Shown here: positions 1,794 through 61,134 of the stretch, piece after piece
Position numbering within the stretch: position 1 is the first letter of the stretch
Layout: every line of letters starts with the position of its first letter
Source of the DNA: Erinaceus europaeus
Taxonomy: Eukaryota; Chordata; Mammalia; Eulipotyphla; Erinaceidae
Reading direction: 5' to 3'
NCBI RefSeq assembly: GCF_950295315.1
Contig: NC_080162.1
Coordinates: forward strand, 76,194,701-76,258,700
Length of the DNA stretch: 64,000 nt
Notes under the pieces: generated by a model
What the model was told of the DNA's origin: nothing
The model's database searches: none
What the model saw: the letters and a program-made list of their open reading frames with translations, nothing else
Program-made: the position numbers and the translations under genes

Positions 1794-2897
1794 GTGAGTC
1801 CCCCATCCTTCCATGTCTGGATCCATCTTGTCATGATGAAGGGTCTCAGTGAGGTGTCACTTGGAAGGTGTCAGCAACCACACAGAACTAATCAGAGGCA
1901 GCCTCTTGCCATATGGGGCTGTGTGTCTTATAAATAGAGCTTTTATCCATTTAAATATATTCTCCTAATAAAAGCTACAATTCCACAAAAAGAATTTCCC
2001 TGCATAGAATAAAGGAAAAGAAAGCTGACTATTACTCCTATTATAGCAATTTCTGTACTTTTTTTTTTATTATCAACAATCCTGAGAGGGTGAGGAGGTG
2101 GCATAACGGTTATGCACAATGAGTTTCAGGCCTGAGGCTCCGAGGTTCCAAGTTCAGTCCAAAGCCACCAAAAACTAGACCCGAGCATTGCTCTGGATAA
2201 AAAAAATAATAAAAGTGAACTAATAAAATGAAGAAAAATAAATAATCCTGAAATGAACCTTTGCTATACAGGAAGTTTATTCCATGATAAAAACATTTTA
2301 TTTGTTATATTTTCTTCAAATTAGGGAGAATATATGAACAGTTAGCTTTACAAATCAAATATTTTAAATTATTTAATAGTTGTAAGGTATGTCAAAGCAA
2401 TTACTTTGCCAACAGAAATGTGTTTGTAGTTTACATTGGTCCATCACCTTTCATACTTATTAAGGATTATACCAATTCCCACTACACTACATGGATTTCT
2501 TTCTTTCTTCCTTACTTTCTTTCATACTTTCTATTAGATAAAGGCTTGTGGTGGAGGGTGAGCCCATAGATTTCATTAATTTTCTGCACAGAAGTATTTG
2601 CAGAGCTAGAATTTTGTCATTTTCCCCCTAGTTTATGATACTTCCTCTCAGGAGAATGGTCTTTAGATTAATAGGTTTACCCTTTAGTGACTAGAGTTTT
2701 ACTATTTTCTGCTATACTAATAACCTGTCTTTTTACACTCTACTTTATGATTTACTATATATTTTTATATCTACTGTTTGGTCACAGTATCAGGGATCCA
2801 TGTTGGGAGTTTGGGAATGTCGCTCTCATTCTCTCATCCTTCTCTCTCAACTCTCCATATATATCAAATAAATAAAATCAAATGTTAAAAAAGTAAG

Positions 2898-2950
<53 letters not shown>

Positions 2951-3521
2951 GCATTTGCTTGACAGCTAGCTAACCTTGATCTTTAGGACTTACTGTTAAT
3001 TTAGGCAGATATGTAGAATCGAATAAATACAGAGCCCATGAAAATATGTCTTGTATCATGTTTCTCTTTCAATATTTTATTTATTTTATTATTGTATAGA
3101 TATAGAGAGCAATTGAGAGTGGAAGGGGAGACAGGGAGGGAGAGAAAATTGCCATCCTGCTTCACCACTTACGAAACCTCCCCCCTACAAAGGAGGACCA
3201 GAGGCTCAAATCTAGGACCTTGAACACTGTAATGTGTGTGATTAACCAGGTACACCAGCACCTGGCCCTTTTTAAATTTTGTTTTGTTTTCTATAGTTAA
3301 CTTATATTTTTTAATTCACTAATAATTTTAATTTTTTGAATTAGTAATTTAACCTTGTTTTATAGAACTATAAGATTTCAGGAGTATTCTCCTACACACA
3401 CTTCCTGCATGCAAGTCACCACACCACCCAGCTAAGTTCTGTGTACCCAACATTTACTGCCTCCACCCTGTTACCATCATAGTTCTCACATTTTAAGAGA
3501 GAGTCCAGTTTATCCCTTCAC

Positions 3522-10187: not shown

Positions 10188-10310
10188 CCTAGGAGGTGGC
10201 ACAGTGGAGAAGGTGTTGGACTCAGAAGCCTGAGGGCCTGAGTTGGATCCCTGACATCTCAGGGAGGGGTCTAAGCACAGTATTTGTATGCGGGTCTGTT
10301 ACTCAGACAC
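10188..10310 (+). mobile_element. tRNA-Lys-like SINE
   Basis: AGGAGGTGGCACAGTGGAGA, GTGTTGGACTCAGAAGCCTG and CTGAGTTGGATCCC resemble a tRNA head; a matching copy is at 63300. Confidence 0.6.
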
Positions 10311-10321
10311 CCACACTTTTT

Positions 10322-11545
10322 TGTTTGTTTGTTTGTTTTATTTTATTTATTTATTTTTATTTTTTTATTTAAGAAAGGATTAATTAACAAAACCAAGGGT
10401 AGGAGGGGTACAACTCCACACAATTCCCACCACCCAATCTCCATATCCCACCCCCTCCCCTGATAGCTTTCCCATTCTCTATCCCTCTGGGAGCATGGAC
10501 CCAGGGTCATTGTGGGTTGCAGAAGGCAGAAGGTCTGGCTTCTGTAATTGCTTCCCCGCTTCTTCTTCTTCTAGCGTTTGCCCTTCTTCCATAGCCAGTC
10601 AACAGCGTCAGGTTGAACCTGATGTAAAGTTTTGAGACCTCCTTTGAATCTGGAGAGGTGGCAGTCGTTGACTATGTGGGTCATAGTCTGTCTGTAGCCG
10701 CAGGGGCAGTTCGGGTCGTCTCTGGCTCCCCAGCGATGGAACATAGCGGCGCACTGGCCATGGCCTGTTCAATAGCGATTGAGGAGGGCCCAATCATAAC
10801 GTGCTAGGTCAAAGCCGGGTTGACGCTTGCAGGGGTCTGTGATGAGGTATTTGTTCTTTACCTCAGTTGACTGCCAACTCTGTTTCCAAGAGTCTGGAAC
10901 AGAGAAGTTCAGTGTAGGCGTAGAGGACCAGATTGGGTGACGAGACGTCAAGCGTTGGACAGGGTGGGCGAAGATATCCGCGTATATTGGCAGGTCCGGT
11001 GGAGCGTAGACGTGGGAAATGAACTTAGATGATGCTGCATCTCGACAAATATCTGGTGGGGCGATGTTGCTAAGAACTGGCAGCCATGGAACCGGGGTGG
11101 AACGGATGGTTCCAGAAATGATCCTCATGGAGGAATATAATTTGGAATCAACCAAGTGAACATGGGGGTTACGGAACCATACTGGGGCACAGTATTCTGC
11201 AGTGGAATAGCATAATGCCAGAGATGATGATCGTAGTGTGGAAGCGCTCGCGCCCCATGAGGAGCTGGCCAGGAATAACATGCAATGATGTTATTCCTCG
11301 TGCTAGGGATTAGTTGCCATTTTTTACAGTAATCAGATATCAGAAACATGTCTTTCGTGAGTGTTTCCTCCAGGATGTCGAACTTTGATGCCTGAGTTGC
11401 ACAGCAGATGTCATCGGAGTAGATGAACTTCCTTGAAGAAGTTTCTGGGAGGTCCATACTGAACATGGGCATTGACTGGTCGGTCCATACTCCCAGTCTG
11501 CCTCTCTCTTTTCCTAGTAGGGTGGGTCTCTGGGGAAGCTGAGCC
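10322..11545 (-). mobile_element. Chimeric retroelement: Jockey-like RT fragment joined to an L1-type 3' end, with target-site duplication
   Basis: Read on the minus strand, 11545-10571 is a Jockey-like coding fragment ending in TAG and (GAA)n. At about 10559 it runs straight into an L1-type 3' UTR that ends in an A-rich tail (poly-T on + at 10320-10370). The whole unit is bracketed by CCACACTTTTT at 10311-10321 and 11546-11556. On the minus strand the target reads TTT|AAAAAGTGTGG, an L1-endonuclease-type site. One duplication around both parts means one insertion event, best explained by L1 template switching onto the Jockey-like RNA. Confidence 0.8.
10571..11545 (-). pseudogene. Jockey-like non-LTR retrotransposon protein, RT to C-terminus, internally deleted and frameshifted
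   Basis: From the minus strand: MDLPETSSRKFIYSDD (catalytic YSDD at 11410-11421), then SDYCKKWQLIPSTRN, a deletion of roughly 70 codons with a frame change, WGASASTLRSSSLALCY, STAEYCAPVW, MRIISGTIRSTPVPWLPVLS, DLARYDWALLNRY, then TGHGQCAAMFHRWGARDDPN and CPCGYRQTMTHIVNDCHLSR to KKGKR and TAG. The stop after NRY is TGA where the copy at 11705 has CGA, a CpG decay. The order (YADD box, thumb-like STAEYCAPVW block, C-terminal CxCG...H...C zinc-knuckle-like motif) fits Jockey-like elements common in arthropods, molluscs and fish. The endonuclease region is absent here. This is a retrotransposon protein, not a host gene. Confidence 0.8.
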
Positions 11546-11556
11546 CCACACTTTTT

Positions 11557-12670
11557 AAACTGTGTGAGTAGGTATCTGGATGCTCTCAGTCCTGAGCTCA
11601 GCTCTGAGATGGAAGAGATTCCTATTCTCATTCAGGGCCAGTTTAAAAGCCCCACACCCTCTGTGGTAACCCCAGCAGGAGTTTGGGACTATTAGCATAC
11701 AAATAGAGAACGCGTTTGGCAAAGAACAGCCCCTCAACATTAAGTTGGAGGACTCGAAGAGCAGGACCAACAGCTTGAAAGCTGGCAGGAGCTGCTTGTT
11801 GCTGGCTTTGAAAGTGACTGGGATCCATGTGGATTCAGTCGGCTAGGAAGGATCGTCAGTTTCCCCAATGAATGGGTACTCACGAGATGCACCACGGGAA
11901 GGTTGATCCAATGCATCCCAGTCAGCTGAGGTAAAGAACAAACACCTCATCACAGACCCCTGCAAGCATCAACCCGGCTTTGACCTAGCACGTTATGATT
12001 GGGCCCTCCTCAATCGCTATCGAACAGGCCATGGCCGATGCGCCGCTATGTTCCATCGCTAGGGAGCCAGAGACGACCCGAACTGCCCCTGCGGCTACAG
12101 ACAGACTATGACCCACATAGTCAATGACTGCCACCTCTCCAGATTCAAAGGAGGTCTCGAAACTTTACATCAGGCTCAACCTGACGCTGTTGACTGGCTA
12201 CGGAAGAAGGGCAAACGCTAGAAGAAGAAGCATACAAATGACCTCACCCTGAGGAGGTGCTTCAGAGAAGGGGATGTATAAAAGCAGGAACTTTGAACAC
12301 ATGGGCTCTCTTTGGCTACTGCTGCTGCTACTGCTTCTGGTCAGAAGCTTCTTCTGGTCAGGTATCCGCCATGGCTGTTTCTCCTGGGAACTGAACATGT
12401 GTGACTCTGTTAGCCGGTAAACTTTTAGACCCCTCTACAGCCATGAGCAACCTTTACAAAAGCTTTTAATTGTTTATCTTATGGGACTAAACTTTGATAA
12501 CCATATTCAGACTTTATAGACCTAGCGTACACTTAACCCTTGATGATAAGTGCTTATTTTGCCTTTTACCTGTTTCACCCTAATAAACCGTGTATTGATT
12601 AAACCAGTTCCCAGCTACGGCTGTGAATTCAAGCAGCCCCAACCCCCTTACCTCCTTTTAAGTTAATTTA
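11557..12670 (+). mobile_element. ERV LTR interrupted by the Jockey-like copy at 11705
   Basis: The outer parts (about 11557-11704 and 12240-12660) read as one LTR: a U3-like stretch, TATAAAA near 12270, and CTAATAAACCGTG near 12581. The 5' edge is uncertain and no duplication was found. Confidence 0.5.
11705..12228 (+). mobile_element. Jockey-like element, 5'-inverted (twin-primed) copy with target-site duplication
   Basis: Flanked by AGCATACAAAT at 11694-11704 and 12229-12239. The right part (about 11915-12221, +) encodes EVKNKHLITDPCKHQPGFDL through LNRYRTGHGRC and CPCGYRQTMTHIVNDC to TAG, then GAAGAAG. The left part (11705 to about 11905) is inverted: on the minus strand it begins near ATG 11828 and reads ALRVLQLNVEGLFFAKRVL, the start of the endonuclease domain. 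Inverted 5' part, direct 3' part and a duplication around both is the signature of twin priming. Confidence 0.8.
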
Positions 12671-27975: not shown

Positions 27976-29149
27976 AAACCTATTTAGAATATTTTTTCAT
28001 CAAAACTTTGAGTGCTCACACTTTTTTCCCCTCAGCCTCACAGCAAAACTACTAGAGCTTCCTAGCACATCTGATGAGCCCCCTCAAACCTAGCCCTGTG
28101 ACCCAGGAAGCAGAACCAGCAATCCCCTTCCAAGCCCCAGGGAACAGACCTGGTGGAGGTCTGTTCAGTAGAGAACTTGGAACATTATCCCTGCCCTGGG
28201 CCTGTGGACTCCTAAGACACAGTGAAGGTTCCCAAATGCAGGCTAGCATCTGCTGCATGGGAAGAAGTGGACACCACTTCCAGATTCTGAGAAGCACACT
28301 GGGAAAACATTAGTGTCGCCACGTGGAAAATGCTGCCTTAAAGTGTGAGTGACATGTCCTTCCGTGACCCTGATGTCCATGCACCTGCTCAAAACAGAGA
28401 AAAATCCACTGTTTGTGACTTTAAGCAATGATGGCTGCTGTGGAAGCAAAGACACCTTTGAATTTCCAGATCTTGAATTCTTGACTAAATAGCAACGACA
28501 GAGACCAGGGCAATAGCTGTTGGCTCAAGGGGTGTGGGCAGACCTCATAAGGGCAGCATGCAGGTGTTTAGGGGAAACTATAGGAATTTCTTTGTATCTA
28601 GACAAGGATGGTGGTGGTATAAAATTGTGCATGTATTGAAATTTAAGTCTACATGCACATAGACAATCTGACTGTAGGTTAATTAAGCCTGGGTTTTTCA
28701 GCTTCAAAAATCTCCACCCCAAGGATACACTAATACAGCATAATATGAAAAGTTGAAGCAAGCTAACCTACCCACCCACAGGACTGGACAGTTCCCCCAT
28801 GTTGGAGCCGGTAAAGGGAGAAATCCAAGAGACAGGCAGGGAGCACAGTTCTGGTGGATTCTGAGAAGCATTCCCTTCTGAGAAGTGCCCTTACCACTGC
28901 ACAACAGCTTCAGAATCAGGGGCTGAGGGACACCACAGAAAGCCCAGTTAGATGAGTCAGGTAGGAGAGCACTGAATATCTGTGTTCCCTCAGACCTAAA
29001 GGAGTGGGACCATGCCCCATGGAGAGATGGTTAGCAGCGCGGGGGGAGGGGGGCATCTTGGAGTAAGTGAGGTGGGACTGCACCTCTCACCACAAACACG
29101 AACCTAAGACTCAAGGAATTGAATAAAAGCAGGAAAGTCTGTGGGTTTT
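27976..29149. other. Intergenic, unrecognised
   Basis: No repeat or gene seen. Confidence 0.4.
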
Positions 29150-29370
29150 TTGTTTTTTATAAAATAGAAACATTGACAAGACCTTAGGATAAGAGGGTAC
29201 ATATCCACACATTGCCCACCCCCAGAGCTCCATATCTAATCCCCTCCCTTGATAGCTTCCCTATTCTTTATCCATCTGAGAGTATAGACCCAAGATCTTT
29301 GTGAGGTGCAGAAGATGGAAGGTCTGGCTTCTGTAACTGCTTCTCTTCTTAACATGGGCATTGGCAGGTT
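29150..29370 (-). mobile_element. L1-type 3' end fragment
   Basis: On the minus strand it shares ACAGAAGCCAGACCTTCCATC and the CTCAGATGGATAAAGAATAG block with the 3' UTR family above and with 10375-10555. Confidence 0.55.
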
Positions 29371-29965: not shown

Positions 29966-30834
29966 TCTCTCCAATTTGTAGATGAGACTAAAGCTCAAGG
30001 TGTTGGGGTGACTTATTTGGGACCACAGGAATTGAACCTGGAAGATGTGCCATAGCCCCCCCCCTTCTGCCATGCACATATACACCCTCCTGGCTTCAAA
30101 TCAGGCACTGTCATCTGTCCAATCAGTGACCACACAAACCTGAATCTGCCTCTCGAACTTATCTGCCTCAGTTTCCTCACAAAGATAGTAGCAGTCTGAC
30201 CTAAACCACAAGAGTTATAGCAAGATAACAGTAACAACAAGAAGGGAGCCCCTCGAAGATGACTGACAGCCCACGAGCTAGGTGTCAAGTGCATGTTTGC
30301 AGGGATCACTGGGTTCGATGTCCTGTCTGGCCCACTGGGGCAGCAGTCAAGACCCTTCAAGGACAGTTCTCATGAAGGCCAGGCAGAAAGGGAGTCAGCC
30401 TGGCTCTCTGATTACAGGACCCCCTGACACAGGGGCATGTCTGGACTCCACAAGCATCACTTGTGTCCCTAGGAAGGAGTCGCCCTCCCAAACCTCTCAT
30501 CAAACCTCAACCACTTCTGATGAAAAAAACACGCCCTGTGTGAGAACACTTGGCACATAGTAAGTGTTCCCACAACTGTGCACATTCCCTCCGTGCTTCT
30601 GCTCACAGAGTGGTTTGCCTCCCAGGGATACTCTCATGGGGCTGAGACCTGACCTCACTGAGCCTCAGTCTCTTCATCTGTGACATAGATTCTGGTGTCC
30701 CAGTGGGTGGGGACAAATACCTAATCCTTCACTGGGGAGGGGGGAAGAGTCAGGATGAAAGCAGGATGTAGCAGGACCCTTCAGGTTGGGAGCCTGGCAT
30801 GGCTTTTCCAGGTGATAAAAGTGGCATTTCCAGA

Positions 30835-31015
30835 CCTTCCACCTTCTTCATCCCACAATGACCTTGGGTCCATACTCCCAGAGGGATAAAAAATAGGAAA
30901 GCTATTGGGAGGGGATGGGGTACAGAGATCTGGTAGTGGGTATTGTGTGGAGTTGTACCCCTCTTATCCTATGGTTTTGTTAATGTCTCCTTTCAAAATA
31001 AATTTTTAAAAGTGG
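30835..31015 (+). mobile_element. L1-type 3' end fragment
   Basis: CCTTGGGTCCATACTCCCAG, TGTGGAGTTGTACCCCTCTT and an AAATAAATTTTTAAAA end match the same 3' UTR family. Confidence 0.6.
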
Positions 31016-42229: not shown

Positions 42230-44235
42230 AGGAGATCTAGGAGAAAATACAGCAGCACAGCCACCCAGCATTTTGCTTCTATTGAAATCCTACTATGAAC
42301 TGCAACCAGAGATAGCAGCCTGGGAAGTCAACCTCAAAACTCTTCAAATCTGGTGAGACCTTTCCTAACACATGGGACTACCTACTACCTACAACTTGTT
42401 AGATGGTACATCATTTAGCTAAGTCACAGATACCAGATTAGGCAAGGGTTTAGGGTACTGGATACAGGTGTACATGTATCCATAAACCAGGGACAATCAT
42501 ATAACTTAAAGTCAAAGTGCTTCATAGTCATTGAAGTGTCTACAGAAGGCATCATATATTCTGTAATTGATTGGATTTAGACCAAATTAGCAGGACAGCC
42601 TAGCAAAAAGGCCCAAAGAAGACAGATCCCCAAAACCTAATTCTGGTTGGGCTTAACAAATGATACTCAATGCCTAAACAACTGAGAGAAAATCTAAGAT
42701 TGTTGGTATGCATGAGACCCCTTCTGTTTCATTTGGTTTAAATCCCCCCTGCTTAACACTATTCTATTTACATAACCACTTCATTCTATTTACATAACTG
42801 CTGTTAACAAGCACCTCCCTCCAGGGCATTGGTTCAATCCCCACTGTTTCATGATATGTTTTTGCTCCACCCCCCCCCTCCTTGTCACACCCTGATCCCT
42901 TCTTTATCACACCCTGATTTTCACCAGTCACTTTTCTCTCCACCCTCTCTATGTCACATCCTGTTTCCACCCTACTTGGGAAGTATATATAAAGACAGCA
43001 TTGTGAGTTTTAGAGTACTTTACCTTGAGTTTAGCTTAGCTCGTCTTAGATTGTGCTGCGTCCTGCATGAATAAAGAGATACTGCCTACAGCTCAACCAT
43101 GAGTCCCTGGTTGTCTGTTACCCGCCTGTGAAGCCAGGCCGGCGAAAACAACATAACCCGTCGAAAACAACATAAGATAATCAAATAAAGAGAGGACTAC
43201 AAAAGTTGGATAAGGGCAAGAGACTGGCCCATTCAATAATGACCTGTTTGGTCAATATCACATCATCTGATCCTCTGGGTTCCTAGTTAGGGAATCCTTG
43301 GATTGTCATATACATATGATGGGCCTTGACCTCGAAAGGGTCCCTTCTCTCCACTACCACTGATTGCTTCCATAAGGAACAGTGCCTTGTGGGCCCTCTC
43401 AGGACCTTGGTTCTCCCATAAAGCAATGACGGTAGGGATAACCCCAGTCTCTGAAGGGAGGCTAGGGGTATCGTACCCGGCCACTTGAAAAAAAAAATGA
43501 TCCTGAAGTGAGTGCAGCCTGCAATGTTCCTCATATGTGACTATGAGCTATAAACTCAGACCAATAAGGACTTAGAGGTTACACAGGCTTTGGCATTTAC
43601 ATATGGGCCCTGGAGCAGGTGGATGGAGGTTCCTGTTCATTAACTATCTTGTCTCAACTTAGGTCATGCCACCTTCCAGACACCAGACTGCAGATGCTAT
43701 CATGACTCCACCCCAACTTCTCTGGGCAGATGATCTCACCAATGTGTCTGGCACCCTAACATCTCCAGAGCTCTTATCCAGTAGGGAAAGATAGAAACAG
43801 GCTGGGGGTATGGATCGACCTGTCAATATCCAAGCTCAGTGGAAAAGCAGCTACAGAATCCAGAAGGCCTACCTTCTATTCCCCATAAACAACCTTGACC
43901 CATACTCCCAGAGGGGAAGAAGTGATAGGATGAAGATGAGAGGACTCTGCACTCCAGCTCCATCAGCACCCAGAGAAAAAGAAGGAAAAGGAGAGGGACA
44001 TATAGAGGTAGTTATGATGTCATGAGTGGCTTAGAGAGAAAGAGAGGGTTGAATAAGGAAAAGAAGGGGCAACTATGTACAAATGTGGACAGATAGTTGT
44101 AAGAAGATGGTTGGCCCATGTCTAAAGCTTTAGGGAAACTGTGATGGATTGCAGTGGGGAGAGTGAAGAGTCAGCACTCTGGGAATGGTGTGGATTCAAA
44201 CCGCTGCCGACATGTAATTCTGTATATAAAAAAGT
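42230..44235 (+). mobile_element. Older L1-type 3' UTR repeat (interrupted by the solo LTR)
   Basis: About 1-2 kb repeat with ACAGAAGCCAGACCTTC-like and CATACTCCCAGAGGG blocks and a GTACAAATGTGGACAGATAGT end block. Related copies lie at 54830-56390 and 59621-60475, and 3' fragments at 29150-29370, 30835-31015 and 34010-34195. The L1 assignment is inferred from the 3' ends. Confidence 0.5.
42701..43172 (+). mobile_element. Solo ERV LTR, 6-bp target-site duplication
   Basis: Begins TGTTGG and ends AACA, flanked by TAAGAT at 42695-42700 and 43173-43178. TATATATAAA lies near 42984 and AATAAA near 43070. It is the same family as 53009-53440 and interrupts an older L1-type 3' UTR repeat. Confidence 0.85.
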
Positions 44236-46300: not shown

Positions 46301-46360
46301 TTCTCTATCTCTCTTATCTCTCTCTTATCTGTCTCCTCTCTTAGTCACAAGTGAGTAAAT

Positions 46361-46503
46361 AGTAATAGACTATGACTATGACCCACATAGTCAAGGACTG
46401 CCACCTCTCCAGATTCAAAGGAGGTCTTGAAACTTTACATCAGGCTCAACCTGACGCTGTTGACTGGCTACGGAAGAAGGGCAAACGCTAGAAGAAGAAG
46501 AAG
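46361..46503 (+). mobile_element. Jockey-like element, 5'-truncated copy with 12-bp target-site duplication
   Basis: Flanked by AAGTGAGTAAAT at 46349-46360 and 46504-46515. It holds only the last ~40 codons (MTHIVKDCHLSRFKGGLETL to KKGKR), TAG at 46489-46491 and (GAA)n. There is no poly(A). It differs from the 11705 copy by about two bases over the shared 112. Confidence 0.85.
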
Positions 46504-46639
46504 AAGTGAGTAAATTAAAAATCTACATATAGCTTTAAGAAGCCCTCAAGGCCTGCAGGGAAGGTAAATCATTGCCAAATTCCTTGAGGAATAACAAGGT
46601 ATAAGCAGTTGCCAGCTTCACCCAGGGATTGAGGTAAAG

Positions 46640-52321: not shown

Positions 52322-52503
52322 GTGCTCAATGAGAAAGGCTTTCAACCAAGACAACTGTATCCTGCTAGACTGTCATTGAGACTAAATGGAGGCAAAAAAA
52401 ATACCTTGTCAGACAAGCAACAGTTGAAAGAATCAACTATCACCAAGCCTGCCATGAAAGAAGTTCTGAAAGTTCTCCTATAAACAGTCAGACCACCATA
52501 AAT

Positions 52504-53793
52504 ATGCCATATATCAGAACACTCAAAAACTCTACAAGAATGCTGTTAAAATATCTTCAATCTTTGATATCAATAAATGTCAATGGCCTGAATTCACCTG
52601 TTAAAAGGCACAGAGCAGGAAGATATATCAGAAAACACAACCTAACAATATGCTGTCTACAGGAAACCCACCTAACTCAACAAGACAAATACAGACTCAA
52701 AGTGAAAAGATGGAAAACTATCATTCAAGCCAATGGACCACAAAAAGGGCAGGAACAGCTATTCTCATATCTGACATGACAGACTTTAAAATAAATAAAA
52801 TTTTAAAAGATAGGGGTGGACATTACTTAATGCTCAGAGGATCAGTCAATCAAGAGGACTTAACAATTATTAACATCTATGCACCCACTGAGAAGCCATC
52901 TAAATACATCAAACATCTACTGAAAGAGCTACAGCAATATATTAACAGCAACACAGTTGTAGTAGGGGACTTCAACACCCCACTCTCTCAACTTGACAGA
53001 TCATCCAGTGTTGAGTAGTATGCCAGCTCCCCTGGCTTAAAGCTTCTTCTCTAATCCTGCTTAACTAAGCACCAGCATGCCTGCAGGGCATTGGTTTGAT
53101 CCCACTTAAAGCTGTGGTCTATTTACATAACCACTGTTAAATAAGCACTACCCTGCCTGCAGGGCATTGGTTTAATTCCCACTGGTTCATGATGTCTTTT
53201 TGCTCCACCCCCCTGATTTACACCAGTCACTTTTTGCTCAACCCTCTCTACATCACATCCTGTTTACACCCTACTTGGCAAGTATATATATAAGGACAGG
53301 ATTATGATTTTAGTTTAGTTTGGTTTAGATGGCTTAGATTGTGCTGCGTTCCGCATGAATAAAGAATAAAGACTGATCTGCGTACAGCTCAGCCATGAGT
53401 CTCTGGTTGTCCATCTCCTGCCCGCAAAGCTAGACCGACAATCCAGGCAGAAAATCAATAAAGACATAAGTGAGCTAAATGAAGAGATAGATAAACTAGA
53501 ACTATTGGACATTTTCAGTCATTCATCCCAAGAAACTGGAATACACATTTTACTCAAATCCGCATGGGTCATTCTCAAGGATAGACCATATGTTAGGCCA
53601 CAAAGACAGCATCAGCCAATTCAAGAACATTGAAATCATCCCAGGCATCTTCTCAGACCACAGTGGAATTAAACTAACACTTAACAACCAACAAAAGATT
53701 AGTAACAGTCCCAAAATGTGGAAGCTCAACAGTATACTTCTTAACAACTACTGGGTCAAAGAGGAAATAAAGGAAGAAATCAAAATGTTTTGA
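52504..53793 (+). pseudogene. L1 ORF2 endonuclease region, broken
   Basis: ISINVNGLNSPVKRHR, CCLQETHLTQQDKYRLKVKR, IINIYAPTEKPSKYI and VVVGDFNTPLSQLDRSS are typical L1 endonuclease blocks, spread over two frames. The solo LTR at 53009 splits them from FSDHSGIKLTLNNQQKISNS. No RT follows. Confidence 0.8.
53009..53440 (+). mobile_element. Solo ERV LTR inside the L1, 6-bp target-site duplication
   Basis: Begins TG (53009) and ends CA (53440), flanked by ATCCAG at 53003-53008 and 53441-53446. It contains a TATATATAA promoter element near 53283 and AATAAA near 53358. It shares most of its sequence with the LTR at 42701. No internal retroviral sequence remains. Confidence 0.85.
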
Positions 53794-55692: not shown

Positions 55693-56049
55693 AAAAAAAG
55701 GAACATACCTAAAATAGACTTCCTAGCTTTTTCACTCATGAAGATCCCTAGTTTCATCTGCTGTATTCCTACCTTTGGGTTCCAATTTATTAAACAATTT
55801 TTCCTACTTTATATCTTACTGCCTTTCAGCCACCAAGTTGCAGACATTACATGAGGCCATTCTTTCTTCCATGGGGAGACAACCTCACCAGTGTATCTTG
55901 AAATCTCACCTCTCCGGAGCCCTACCCCACTAGGAAAAGATAGAAATAGGTTGGAGTTATGGACTGACCTGCAAATGTTCATGTCCAGCAGAGAAACAAT
56001 TACAGAAGCCAGATCTTCTACCTTCTGCATCCCATAAAGAATTTTGGTC

Positions 56050-56245
56050 CAAGGGCCAGGAGGTGGCGTACCTGGTTAAGTGCACACATTACAGTTCAAG
56101 CCCATGGTCCCCATCTGCAGGGGGAAAGCTTCACAAGTGATGAAGCAGGGCTATAGGTGTCACTCTGTCTCTCTCCCTATCTCCTGCTCCCCTCTCAATT
56201 TCTCTCTATCTCTATCCAATAATAAATAAATAAAACACATTACAA
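56050..56245 (+). mobile_element. Short hedgehog-type SINE
   Basis: GGGCCAGGAGGTGGCGTACC, GTTCAAGCCCATGGTCCCCA, AATAAATAAATAAAA. Confidence 0.8.
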
Positions 56246-57569: not shown

Positions 57570-59470
57570 ACAGACAGGGACACAACCAAAAAAGAAAACT
57601 ATTGACCAATATCTCTGATGAACATAGATGTGAAAATATTGAACAAAATTCTAGCCAACCGGATACAACAGTATATCAAAAAGATTGTTCATCATGACCA
57701 AGTGGGGTTTATCCCAGGCATGCAAGGTTGGTTTAATATACATAAATCAATCAATGTGATCCACCACATCAACAAAAACCACATGGTGATATCAACAGAT
57801 GCAGAAAAAGCCTTTGACAAAATCCAACATCCCTCTATGATCAAAACACTACAAAAAATGGGAATAGATGGAAAATTCCTCAAGATAGTGGAGTCTATAT
57901 ATAGCAAACCTACAGCCAATATCATACTCAATGGTGAAAAACTGGAAGCATTTCCACTCAGATCAGGTACTAGACAGGGCTGCCCACTATCACTATTCCT
58001 ATTCAGCATAGTGTTGGAAGTTCTTGCCATAGCAATCAAGCAGGAGCAAGGAATTAAAGGGATACAGATTGTAAGAGAAGTCAAACTCTCCCTATTTGCA
58101 GATGACATGATAGTATACACAGAAAAACCTAAGGAATCCAGCAAGAAGCTTTTGGAAATCATCAGGATATACAGTAAGGTGTCAGGATACAAAATTAACA
58201 TTCAAAAGTCAGTGGCATTCCTCTATGCAAACACTAAGTTAGAAGAAATTGAAATCCAGAATCAATTACTTTTACTATAGCAACAAAAACAGTAAAATAT
58301 CTAGGAGTAAACCTAACCAAAAAGTGAAAGACTTGTATACTGAAAATTATGAGTCACTATTCAAGGAAATTGAAAAAGACACAAAGAAGTGGAAAGATAT
58401 TCCATGTTCATGGGTTGGAAGAATTAACATCATCAAAATGAATATACTACCCAGAGCCAACTACAAATTTAATGTTATCCCCATCAAGATCCCAAGCACA
58501 TGTTTTAGGAGAATAGAACAAATGCTACAAATGTTTATCTGGAACCAGAAAAGACCTAGAATTGCCAAAACAATCTTGAGAAAAAGAACAGAACCAGAGG
58601 CATCACACTCCCAGATCTCAAATTGTATTATAGGGCCAAAACTCCTTGGTACTGGAACATGAATAGACACACTGACCAGTGGAATAGAATTGAGAGCCCA
58701 GAAGTGAACCCCCACACCTGTGGACACCTAATTTTTGACAAAGGGGCCCAGACTATTACATGGGGAAAGCAGAGTCTCTTCAACAAATGGTGTTGGAAAT
58801 AATGGGTTGAAACATGCAGAAGAATGAAACTGAACCACTGTATTTCATCAAATACAAAAGTAAATTCCAAGTGGATCAAGGACTTGGCTGTTAGACCACA
58901 AACTATCAGATACTTAGAGGAAAATATTGGCAGAACTCTTTTCCGCATACATTTTAAAGACATCTTCAATGAAATGAATCCAATTACAAAGAAGACTAAG
59001 GCAAGTATAAACCTATGGGACTACATCAAATTAAAAATCTTCTTCACAGCAAAAGAAACTACTACCCAAACCAAGAGACCCCTCACAGAATGGGAGATCT
59101 TTACATGCCATACATCAGACAAGAGTTTAATAACCAACATATATAAAGAGCTTGCCAAACTCAACAACAAGACAACAAATAACCCCATCTAAAAATGGGG
59201 GGAGGACATGGACAGAATATTCACCACAGAAGAGATCCAAAAGGCTGAGAAACACATGAAAAAATACTCCAAGTCTCTGATTGTCAGAGAAATGCAAATC
59301 AAGACAACAATGAGATACCACTTCACTCCTGTGAGAATGTCATACATCAGAAAAGGTAACAGCAGCAAATGCTGGAGAGGGTGTGGGCTCAAAGGAACCC
59401 TCCTACACTGCTGGTGGGAATGCCAGTTGGTCCAACCTCTGTGGAGAACAGTCTGGAGAACTCTCAGAAG
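57570..59470 (+). mobile_element. L1 ORF2 segment, direct part of the same L1
   Basis: [70 protein letters not shown] (the RT FADD box near 58096), then connector sequence and [20 protein letters not shown]. It is open for 220 codons (57618-58280), then broken by frameshifts. It stops before the ORF2 C-terminus and has no poly(A), so the 3' end is lost. Confidence 0.85.
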
Positions 59471-59481
59471 GCAGGCCACTT

Positions 59482-59609
59482 CTTCTTCTTCTTCTAGCGT
59501 TTGCCCTTCTTCCGTAGCCAGTTAACAGCATCAGGTTGAGCCTGATGTAAAGTTTCGAGACCTCCTTTGAATCTGGAGAGGTGGCAGTCGTTGACTATGT
59601 GGGTCACTA
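59482..59609 (-). mobile_element. Jockey-like element, 5'-truncated copy with 11-bp target-site duplication
   Basis: Flanked by GCAGGCCACTT at 59471-59481 and 59610-59620. On the minus strand it contains the last ~37 codons, TAG (complement at 59494-59496) and (GAA)n. It sits at the boundary of a truncated L1 and an older L1-type 3' UTR repeat. Confidence 0.85.
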
Positions 59610-59620
59610 GCAGGCCACTT

Positions 59621-60475
59621 ATCTCCTGAGACCCTCCCTAGTCAGGGAATCCTGAGATTCCCACACAAACATGATGGGACTAGACCTCTAACAGATCCCT
59701 CTCTCCACTGTCACTGGCCATTTCCATCAGGAATAATGTAATGGACCCCTTTGTGGGCCCCTAGAACACCTTGCTCTCAATGTGAATCAACAGTGGTAGG
59801 AACTGCCCCATTCTCTGAAGGGTGGTCGGACCAAAATCGCTATCACTTGAAGATTATGGGTCTGGCAATGGGTGCAGCCTAGAACACTCCTAGCTATGAC
59901 TCAGAATGTGAACTCAGACCTACAGGGATGCAGAGGTTACACAGGCTTCTGCACTGGATATAGGCCCCAGTTCAAATCAATGGGGTTTACAGTTAATGGT
60001 ATTTATATGCTTTTCCTAGATTTGGGAGCTACTCTCTTCCCTGATCCAGCTTTATAGCCCTATTTCCAACCCTGACAGCATCTCCCCAGACAATATTTTT
60101 GTTCTACCTGCATTTTAGCTATCAGGAACAGGCAAAAATTAGTAAAGTCATGGGCCCTTGGAATATATCTAAAATAGACCTGCTAACTTTTTCCAAAAAG
60201 GAAACTCCAAATTTTATCTTCTATAGTCTTGCCTTTAAGTCCCAGATTATTAAACAATTTGTTCTTTATATCTTAAAGCCTTTTCACACACCAAGTTGCA
60301 GATGCTACCATGATGCCAACCTGACTCTCCAGGGCAGACGACCTCACCAATGTACATTGGAACCACATCTCTCTGGAGCCCTGCCCCACTAGGGAAAGCT
60401 AGAAACAGGCTTGGGAGTATGGATCGACCTGCAAATGCCCATGTTCAGCAGAGAAGAAATTACAGAAGCCAGACC
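59621..60475 (+). mobile_element. Older L1-type 3' UTR repeat
   Basis: Aligns by eye with 54900-56020 (ATGATGGGACTAGACCTCTA, GGGAAAGCTAGAAACAGGCT blocks). The Jockey-like copy at 59482 is inserted at its left edge. Confidence 0.55.
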
Positions 60476-61134
60476 TGAATGCAGGACAATGAAAGAATGG
60501 GCCAACTCAGTCTCCTCTGGACTTAAATTCAACATCTGTTGAATTTTCCGAATTCATGTGCATGTTGATGTATTCAACAAGATAGATGGCAAATGATGAA
60601 ACCAAGTCTGAAAGGCATAAAGCAAAGATGGTGGACAAGCTGAATTGGATGATAGATCGTATTACCTATGAAACCACCTCTGTGCTGGAAAACCTTCATA
60701 AGAATATACTAAGTGGAAGGAAGCTGGTGTTGCCTATAATGCAGAGAGGAAGCTAATGGGGCCAGGCTGGACTCAGAGGAGTGTGAGGAAGCTACTACAG
60801 CTGCCCCAGGCAAGGCAAAATGAAGTCTAAGGTGTCATTTGTGGGGAGACTCAGGAGGAAGTGGGGGTGAATTGTGGTAAGGAATGTATGGAAACAAGCC
60901 AGAAGTCAGGCCTTTTGTGCAAAGAAAACTTTGGGGGAGCTGGCTCTGCCAAGTATAGAGATGGGGTGGGATTGGTGGTTCTGAGGCTGCCCTGTATGTA
61001 TCTTTCTCACCCAAAGGGAAATCTGAAACGGAGCTCCTATATGAGCCCAAACTTTGTCCCTGAGGCAAGTTAATGTGATAAATGGGGGGCATATGAGAGT
61101 CATGTTATCCAAATAGATATGTGTGTATGTATGT

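Follow-up and report, generated by a model that had tools for sequence, protein, structure and literature searches.

Vingi is a clade of non-LTR retrotransposons within the Ingi/I group, separated from Ingi by the absence of RNase H, and Jockey proper is a different clade. In 2011, Kojima, Kapitonov and Jurka reportedly found Vingi, without RNase H, in two hedgehog genomes, along with 11 families of internally deleted derivatives in the European hedgehog. They are said to have found it missing from 33 other mammals, and to have taken horizontal transfer as implied while keeping a vertical route possible. The family, its host and the horizontal-transfer hypothesis are already in print: entry of Vingi into hedgehogs by horizontal transfer has been called likely, and Vingi-1N3_EE is represented by 311 copies under 1% divergence (PMC3183009). 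Elsewhere Vingi is treated as a clade that includes a locust element (PMC3391268), and according to the literature the human X12_LINE is a Vingi remnant and Vingi also occurs in reptiles; one Vingi protein fossil of pre-amniote age has been described in human (PMC9004415). A 2025 survey of the African hedgehog counted 4,476 I-Jockey copies occupying 2.23 Mb (PMC12026660, Table 1), and Vingi is never named in its main text; this annotation class probably corresponds to the Vingi-like hedgehog element described here. RTE1_Sar of the common shrew is also a recently expanded LINE in a eulipotyphlan that has been ascribed to horizontal transfer, but it belongs to the RTE clade, a nematode donor group has been proposed for it and it was not found in hedgehog (PMC6542046).

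Against this background, we analyzed a 64-kb stretch of hedgehog DNA (the window) for which the original prediction had proposed four copies of a recently active, Jockey-like element foreign to the usual mammalian LINEs. A blastn comparison of positions 10301–12500 with the whole window confirmed that one non-LTR retrotransposon is present at four places, designated A, B, C and D. All four copies share the same 3′ end, and none is intact in its coding capacity for protein. When the final 112 coding bases (GACCCACATAG to CGCTAG) are compared pairwise, the copies show 4, 5, 5, 2, 3 and 4 differences in the six pairs, so that the predicted distance of 2–5 bases over about 112 holds for every pair. 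We read the four copies, with high confidence, as dead non-LTR retrotransposon (LINE) insertions, most likely of Vingi, the family reported in hedgehogs, and likely to have moved by target-primed reverse transcription. The Vingi assignment, as the most likely one, rests on anatomy together with the literature: Vingi-1_EE and its Vingi-1N_EE derivatives reportedly share the host group, an endonuclease and a reverse transcriptase (RT) without RNase H, compactness, youth and internally deleted derivatives. At the level of description, Vingi-1_EE is not known to differ in any respect. Being young and compact and lying outside the LINEs usual in mammals, the element is a clean system for studying twin priming, trans-mobilization and horizontal transfer. 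Our own additions are small: the anatomy of the target sites and of the inversion, a sign that source copies were under selection, and results that speak against an arthropod source. They may overlap with the 2011 paper.

The interval 10571–12228 had been taken as the protein pieces of one family. These pieces do belong to the same element, but they derive from two insertions in different orientation with host DNA between them (11459–11704), and a single element extending over 10571–12228 is ruled out. Copy A (10561–11458, minus strand) comprises element nt 2015–2169 and 2346–3073, corresponding to part of the RT, the thumb and the C-terminus. It is 5′-truncated, ends in an (AAG)n tail and carries a 176 bp internal deletion, a frame change just past the deletion junction and one stop codon. 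A target duplication was looked for at its flanks and not found. The insertion splits a host interspersed repeat, the left half of which lies at 10354–10560 (plus strand; found by blastn, with relatives elsewhere) and the right half at 11459–11545 (plus strand; found by empty-site comparison). Once joined, the flanks 10440–10560 and 11459–11545 align continuously, apart from a gap of 2 bases where they meet, to 55911–56051 and 60376–60476, and a third window copy of the repeat spanning the joint is located at 43782–43915. Of the 59 other loci that were fetched, 16 contain relatives of the split repeat. This host repeat is abundant, with window members at 10354–10560, 29146–29343, 30830–31002, 43782–43915, 55911–56051 and 60376–60476.

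Copy B (overall span 11705–12230 by blastn) begins with an inverted 5′ segment (11705–11919, minus strand; element nt 1 to about 215), whose complete 5′ end lies at 11919, and continues as a direct 3′ segment (11919–12221, plus strand; element nt 2771–3073). Its start codon at 11826–11828 opens the peptide MDPSHF...LRVLQLNVEGL, and its stop codon, TAG at 12219–12221, is followed by the AAG tail. All peptides quoted in the original prediction were found in the window; LRVLQLNVEGL belongs to the inverted segment of copy B and has no place in copy A. An 11 bp target-site duplication, AGCATACAAAT, flanks the insertion at 11694–11704 (5′ side, plus strand) and 12229–12239 (3′ side, plus strand), the latter overlapping the tail by one or two bases. 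The defects of copy B are one stop codon and the inversion itself; an inverted 5′ end followed by a direct 3′ end is the arrangement typical of twin priming in LINEs.

Only the 3′ end, about 115–120 bp, is left of copies C and D. Copy C (about 46374–46503, plus strand) retains the last approximately 118 element bases and an (AAG)n tail, and is flanked by a 12 bp target-site duplication, AAGTGAGTAAAT, at 46349–46360 (5′ side, plus strand) and 46504–46515 (3′ side, plus strand). About 13 extra bases (46361–46373) separate the element from its 5′ duplication; they partly duplicate the first element bases there (gactatga/ctatga) and were perhaps made during insertion. Copy D (59482–59609, minus strand) consists of the last approximately 115 element bases and an (AAG)n tail, flanked by an 11 bp target-site duplication, AAGTGGCCTGC, at 59471–59481 (3′ side, minus strand) and 59610–59620 (5′ side, minus strand). 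It was inserted at the end of the open frame 59193–59525, which resembles the C-terminus of L1 ORF2 on account of a CWWEC motif; Pfam gave zero matches at 59193–59525. Other L1 remains in the window comprise 57606–58280 (plus strand) and 52369–53018 (plus strand, with weak endonuclease matches), in addition to 59193–59525 (plus strand), assigned by the motif only.

These insertion sites bear directly on the possibility that the copies stem from contamination or misassembly, a concern that the prediction itself had raised. Copy A interrupts a host repeat of which the window also holds paralogues with an empty site, copies B, C and D are each flanked by target duplications, and the family is spread over many chromosome-sized contigs. 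The 11–12-base target duplications and the nesting in host repeats strongly disfavor contamination, and we assign it a negligible probability.

We next considered the family across the genome (2.72 Gb, 1172 contigs), using the 65-aa C-terminus of copy A as the query. Scoring covered 150 of the 37,160 candidates from the first look, and all 150 matched, so that the family has at least 150 matches in this genome. Sixty loci were fetched (L001–L060), L001 being the window itself. Among the 30 loci with full upstream coverage (L031–L060), 22 copies are 5′-truncated, four are 5′-inverted, three are full-length and one (L056) is internally deleted. Exact target duplications of at least 8 bp, with a median of 11 bp, were identified in 15 of these 30 loci, and none was found in the other 15. 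Forms that retain only the two ends of the element occur twice in L001–L040, in L022 (nt 8–149 and 3028–3073) and L027 (nt 1–129 and 2814–3073). L022 contains a 3′ fragment and then, within about 280 bases, the separate nt 8–149/3028–3073 derivative, a candidate SINE-like non-autonomous form.

The common 3′ end, the variable 5′ truncation and the target-site duplications are hallmarks of target-primed reverse transcription, and the anatomy of the element supports this mechanism, in which 5′ truncation is frequent and twin priming occasional. In this reading, the cycle would begin with the element protein nicking the target and starting reverse transcription at the tail of the RNA that encodes it. 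An early stop of reverse transcription would leave a 5′-truncated copy, a second priming event inside the RNA may have produced the 5′ inversion of copy B, and internally deleted RNAs could be copied by the element protein in trans.

The full-length copy L032 measures 3,073 bp and consists of a 91-nt leader, one 993-codon frame and a TAG that abuts the (AAG)n tail; the frame holds one internal stop codon. In the three full-length copies the longest open frame reaches 877, 581 and 366 aa, respectively, and none of these three provides a complete working frame. L031, which is 5′-truncated at nt 175, has an open frame of 965 aa with Pfam matches to Exo_endo_phos (3e-10), Exo_endo_phos_2 (1.7e-11) and RVT_1 (4.7e-32). 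An APE-type endonuclease followed by an RT within one frame is seen by Pfam in L031 and in the layout of L032. The 965-aa frame gave no Pfam match to RNase H up to E = 1, and past the CPCG...C stretch 29 residues are left before the stop codon. In the window itself, none of six fragments exceeded the curated Pfam cut-off, and Rfam and tRNA scans of all 64 kb returned zero matches. The predicted RT box YSDD is present in copy A, but is a variant of that copy: most of the other sequences compared read YADD (L031, L032, L034, L035 and a database protein, P0249), and L033 reads YAND.

In a comparison with mammalian LINEs that covered L1, the L031 frame scored 45 bits against PDB chains of the LINE-1 ORF2 protein, as compared to 337 bits for the window RT frame 57606–58280 (plus strand). 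The latter score is in keeping with a mammalian host. The prediction of a Jockey-like family absent from the usual mammalian LINEs is upheld insofar as the element is a non-LTR retrotransposon far from the L1 of the window, but Vingi describes it better than Jockey.

To date the family, we counted differences from the column majority in the 37 of 58 loci spanning nt 2361–3073. Divergence outside CpG columns averages 0.90% (range 0.16–1.75%), and CpG columns hold 285 of the 496 differences. A mean of 0.9% in 37 loci indicates that the family was recently active, as had been predicted. Hedgehog TIGGER1 copies show 28% divergence (PMC3517439), which, over 100–190 My, gives a rate bracket of 1.5–2.8e-9 per site per year and a mean copy age of about 3–6 My, for a sample that leans young because the loci were chosen by protein similarity to copy A.

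The same copies carry a signature of selection in stretches that lie outside the region used for choosing loci. Of the variants shared by at least two copies, 11 of 17 are synonymous in nt 2361–2860 (36 loci; p 0.0025) and 14 of 29 in nt 1900–2860 (20 loci; p 0.019), where about 29% is expected in either case; the two tests are not independent, since the stretches overlap. Single-copy variants are nearer to neutral, with 38 of 104 synonymous in nt 2361–2860 (p 0.06) and 44 of 126 in nt 1900–2860 (p 0.07). A codon-position test on the shared variants gave p 0.021 in nt 2361–2860 and p 0.23 in nt 1900–2860. The synonymous excess in shared variants, next to near-neutral single-copy variants, points to source copies that need their own protein. 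We read this as selection on the source copies for their protein while their offspring decay, which is the behavior of an autonomous LINE.

To place the element among its relatives, we searched about 5.8 billion proteins three times, obtaining 109, at least 1942 and at least 1855 matches at E limits of 1e-3, 1e-10 and 1e-20, the second and third searches drawing on candidate sets capped at about 8,000; the 109, the best 120 of at least 1942 and the best 120 of at least 1855 were listed, for a total of 316 different proteins. One of these, P0249, is encoded on a 2,072-bp ENA metagenome contig and shares 96% identity with L031 across 563 aa. Its identity to the 11 loci matched over at least 420 residues is 93.8–97.6%, comparable to the 91.6–96.3% between L031 and the 15 loci matched over at least 400 residues. 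Its first 20 residues correspond to the antisense strand of the same element, and the contig must therefore carry a junction between inverted pieces, which may be a chimera made during amplification or an insertion in head-to-head arrangement. Because it matches the genome copies as L031 does and begins with antisense element sequence, P0249 is disfavored as a donor and probably represents hedgehog DNA in a metagenome.

Among the 315 matches listed besides P0249, no close donor was found: none exceeds 61% identity to L031 over at least 200 residues. The top matches are P0191 and P0242 (61% over at least 200 residues) and, when at least 100 residues are required, P0086 (67% over 110 aa). The best of the named relatives listed come from an eel (54% identity over 278 aa) and from a turtle (53% identity over 334 aa), with the aphid Macrosiphum close behind (48% over 279 aa), and the other 18 named arthropod proteins listed are 41–48% identical to L031. 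An IMG/VR scan with the relative P0002 yielded three pattern matches, none of which was confirmed.

The idea that a parasitic arthropod, for example a tick or a flea, delivered the element draws on these matches, as 19 of the 21 listed proteins with an organism name are from arthropods and, over one 167-aa stretch, copy A is closer to the aphid (51%) than to the turtle (48.5%). No named tick or flea protein is among the matches listed, however, and the trees, both built solely from relatives found by protein search, point away from arthropods. In the first tree (119 rows), the hedgehog row and P0249 fall in a 51-row set with the eel and the turtle (SH-aLRT 100), the other 47 rows of which are unnamed, and all 13 named arthropod rows included lie outside it. 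After addition of the six named arthropod proteins absent from that tree, the second tree (125 rows) placed 19 of 19 outside the set of the hedgehog with a support of 100. Forcing the hedgehog rows into a 56-row clade with ten named arthropods, a group chosen by reading the tree, cost 129 log units and was rejected (p-AU 0.0046). Two looser tests, which set the hedgehog rows apart from the rest of their set but also allow them at its base, did not reject (p 0.45 and 0.53). The parasite route suggested in the original prediction is not supported by these results, and we regard it as very improbable. The rows nearest to the hedgehog row differ between the two trees, and the hedgehog row would lie either inside or at the base of its 51-row set.

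How the family reached the hedgehog is a question of horizontal entry or vertical survival, and the trees do not separate the two. We lean towards horizontal entry into the hedgehog lineage followed by expansion, which is compatible with the Vingi explanation. In its favor are the patchy distribution of Vingi reported in 2011, the recent activity seen in the 37 dated loci and two precedents, Mariner_Tbel in hedgehog and RTE1_Sar in shrew, in addition to the published view that it is likely (PMC3183009). The 61% ceiling among the matches listed besides P0249, which leaves no near-identical donor, weighs against it, as do the Vingi remnant in human and the occurrence of Vingi in reptiles. The proposal of horizontal transfer is compatible with our results but had been published before, and the data presented here fall short of proof.

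Conversely, the human X12_LINE remnant and the reptile elements make it possible that an old amniote Vingi lineage endured along the line to hedgehogs while disappearing or falling silent in the remaining mammals. We hold this to be the case with somewhat low probability. The pre-amniote protein fossil in human (PMC9004415) and the turtle protein within the 51-row set of the hedgehog are consistent with it. Against it, the sampled copies are all young, with a maximum non-CpG divergence of 1.75%, albeit in a search that favored good matches. Vingi is also reportedly missing from 33 other mammals. Returning to horizontal entry, a more specific version, in which the element jumped into hedgehog ancestors from a vertebrate or other aquatic-animal lineage rather than an arthropod parasite and is still jumping, strikes us as tentative and, taken as a whole, rather unlikely. 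If true, hedgehogs would be mammals that harbor a living LINE other than L1 and RTE.

Finally, two of the fetched loci, L028 (C90:59132069-59135263) and L029 (C90:59171372-59174566), lie 39 kb apart and show one difference in 3,195 bases. The pair represents either a segmental duplication of very recent date or a duplicate introduced by the assembly, and L029 was left out of the divergence counts.
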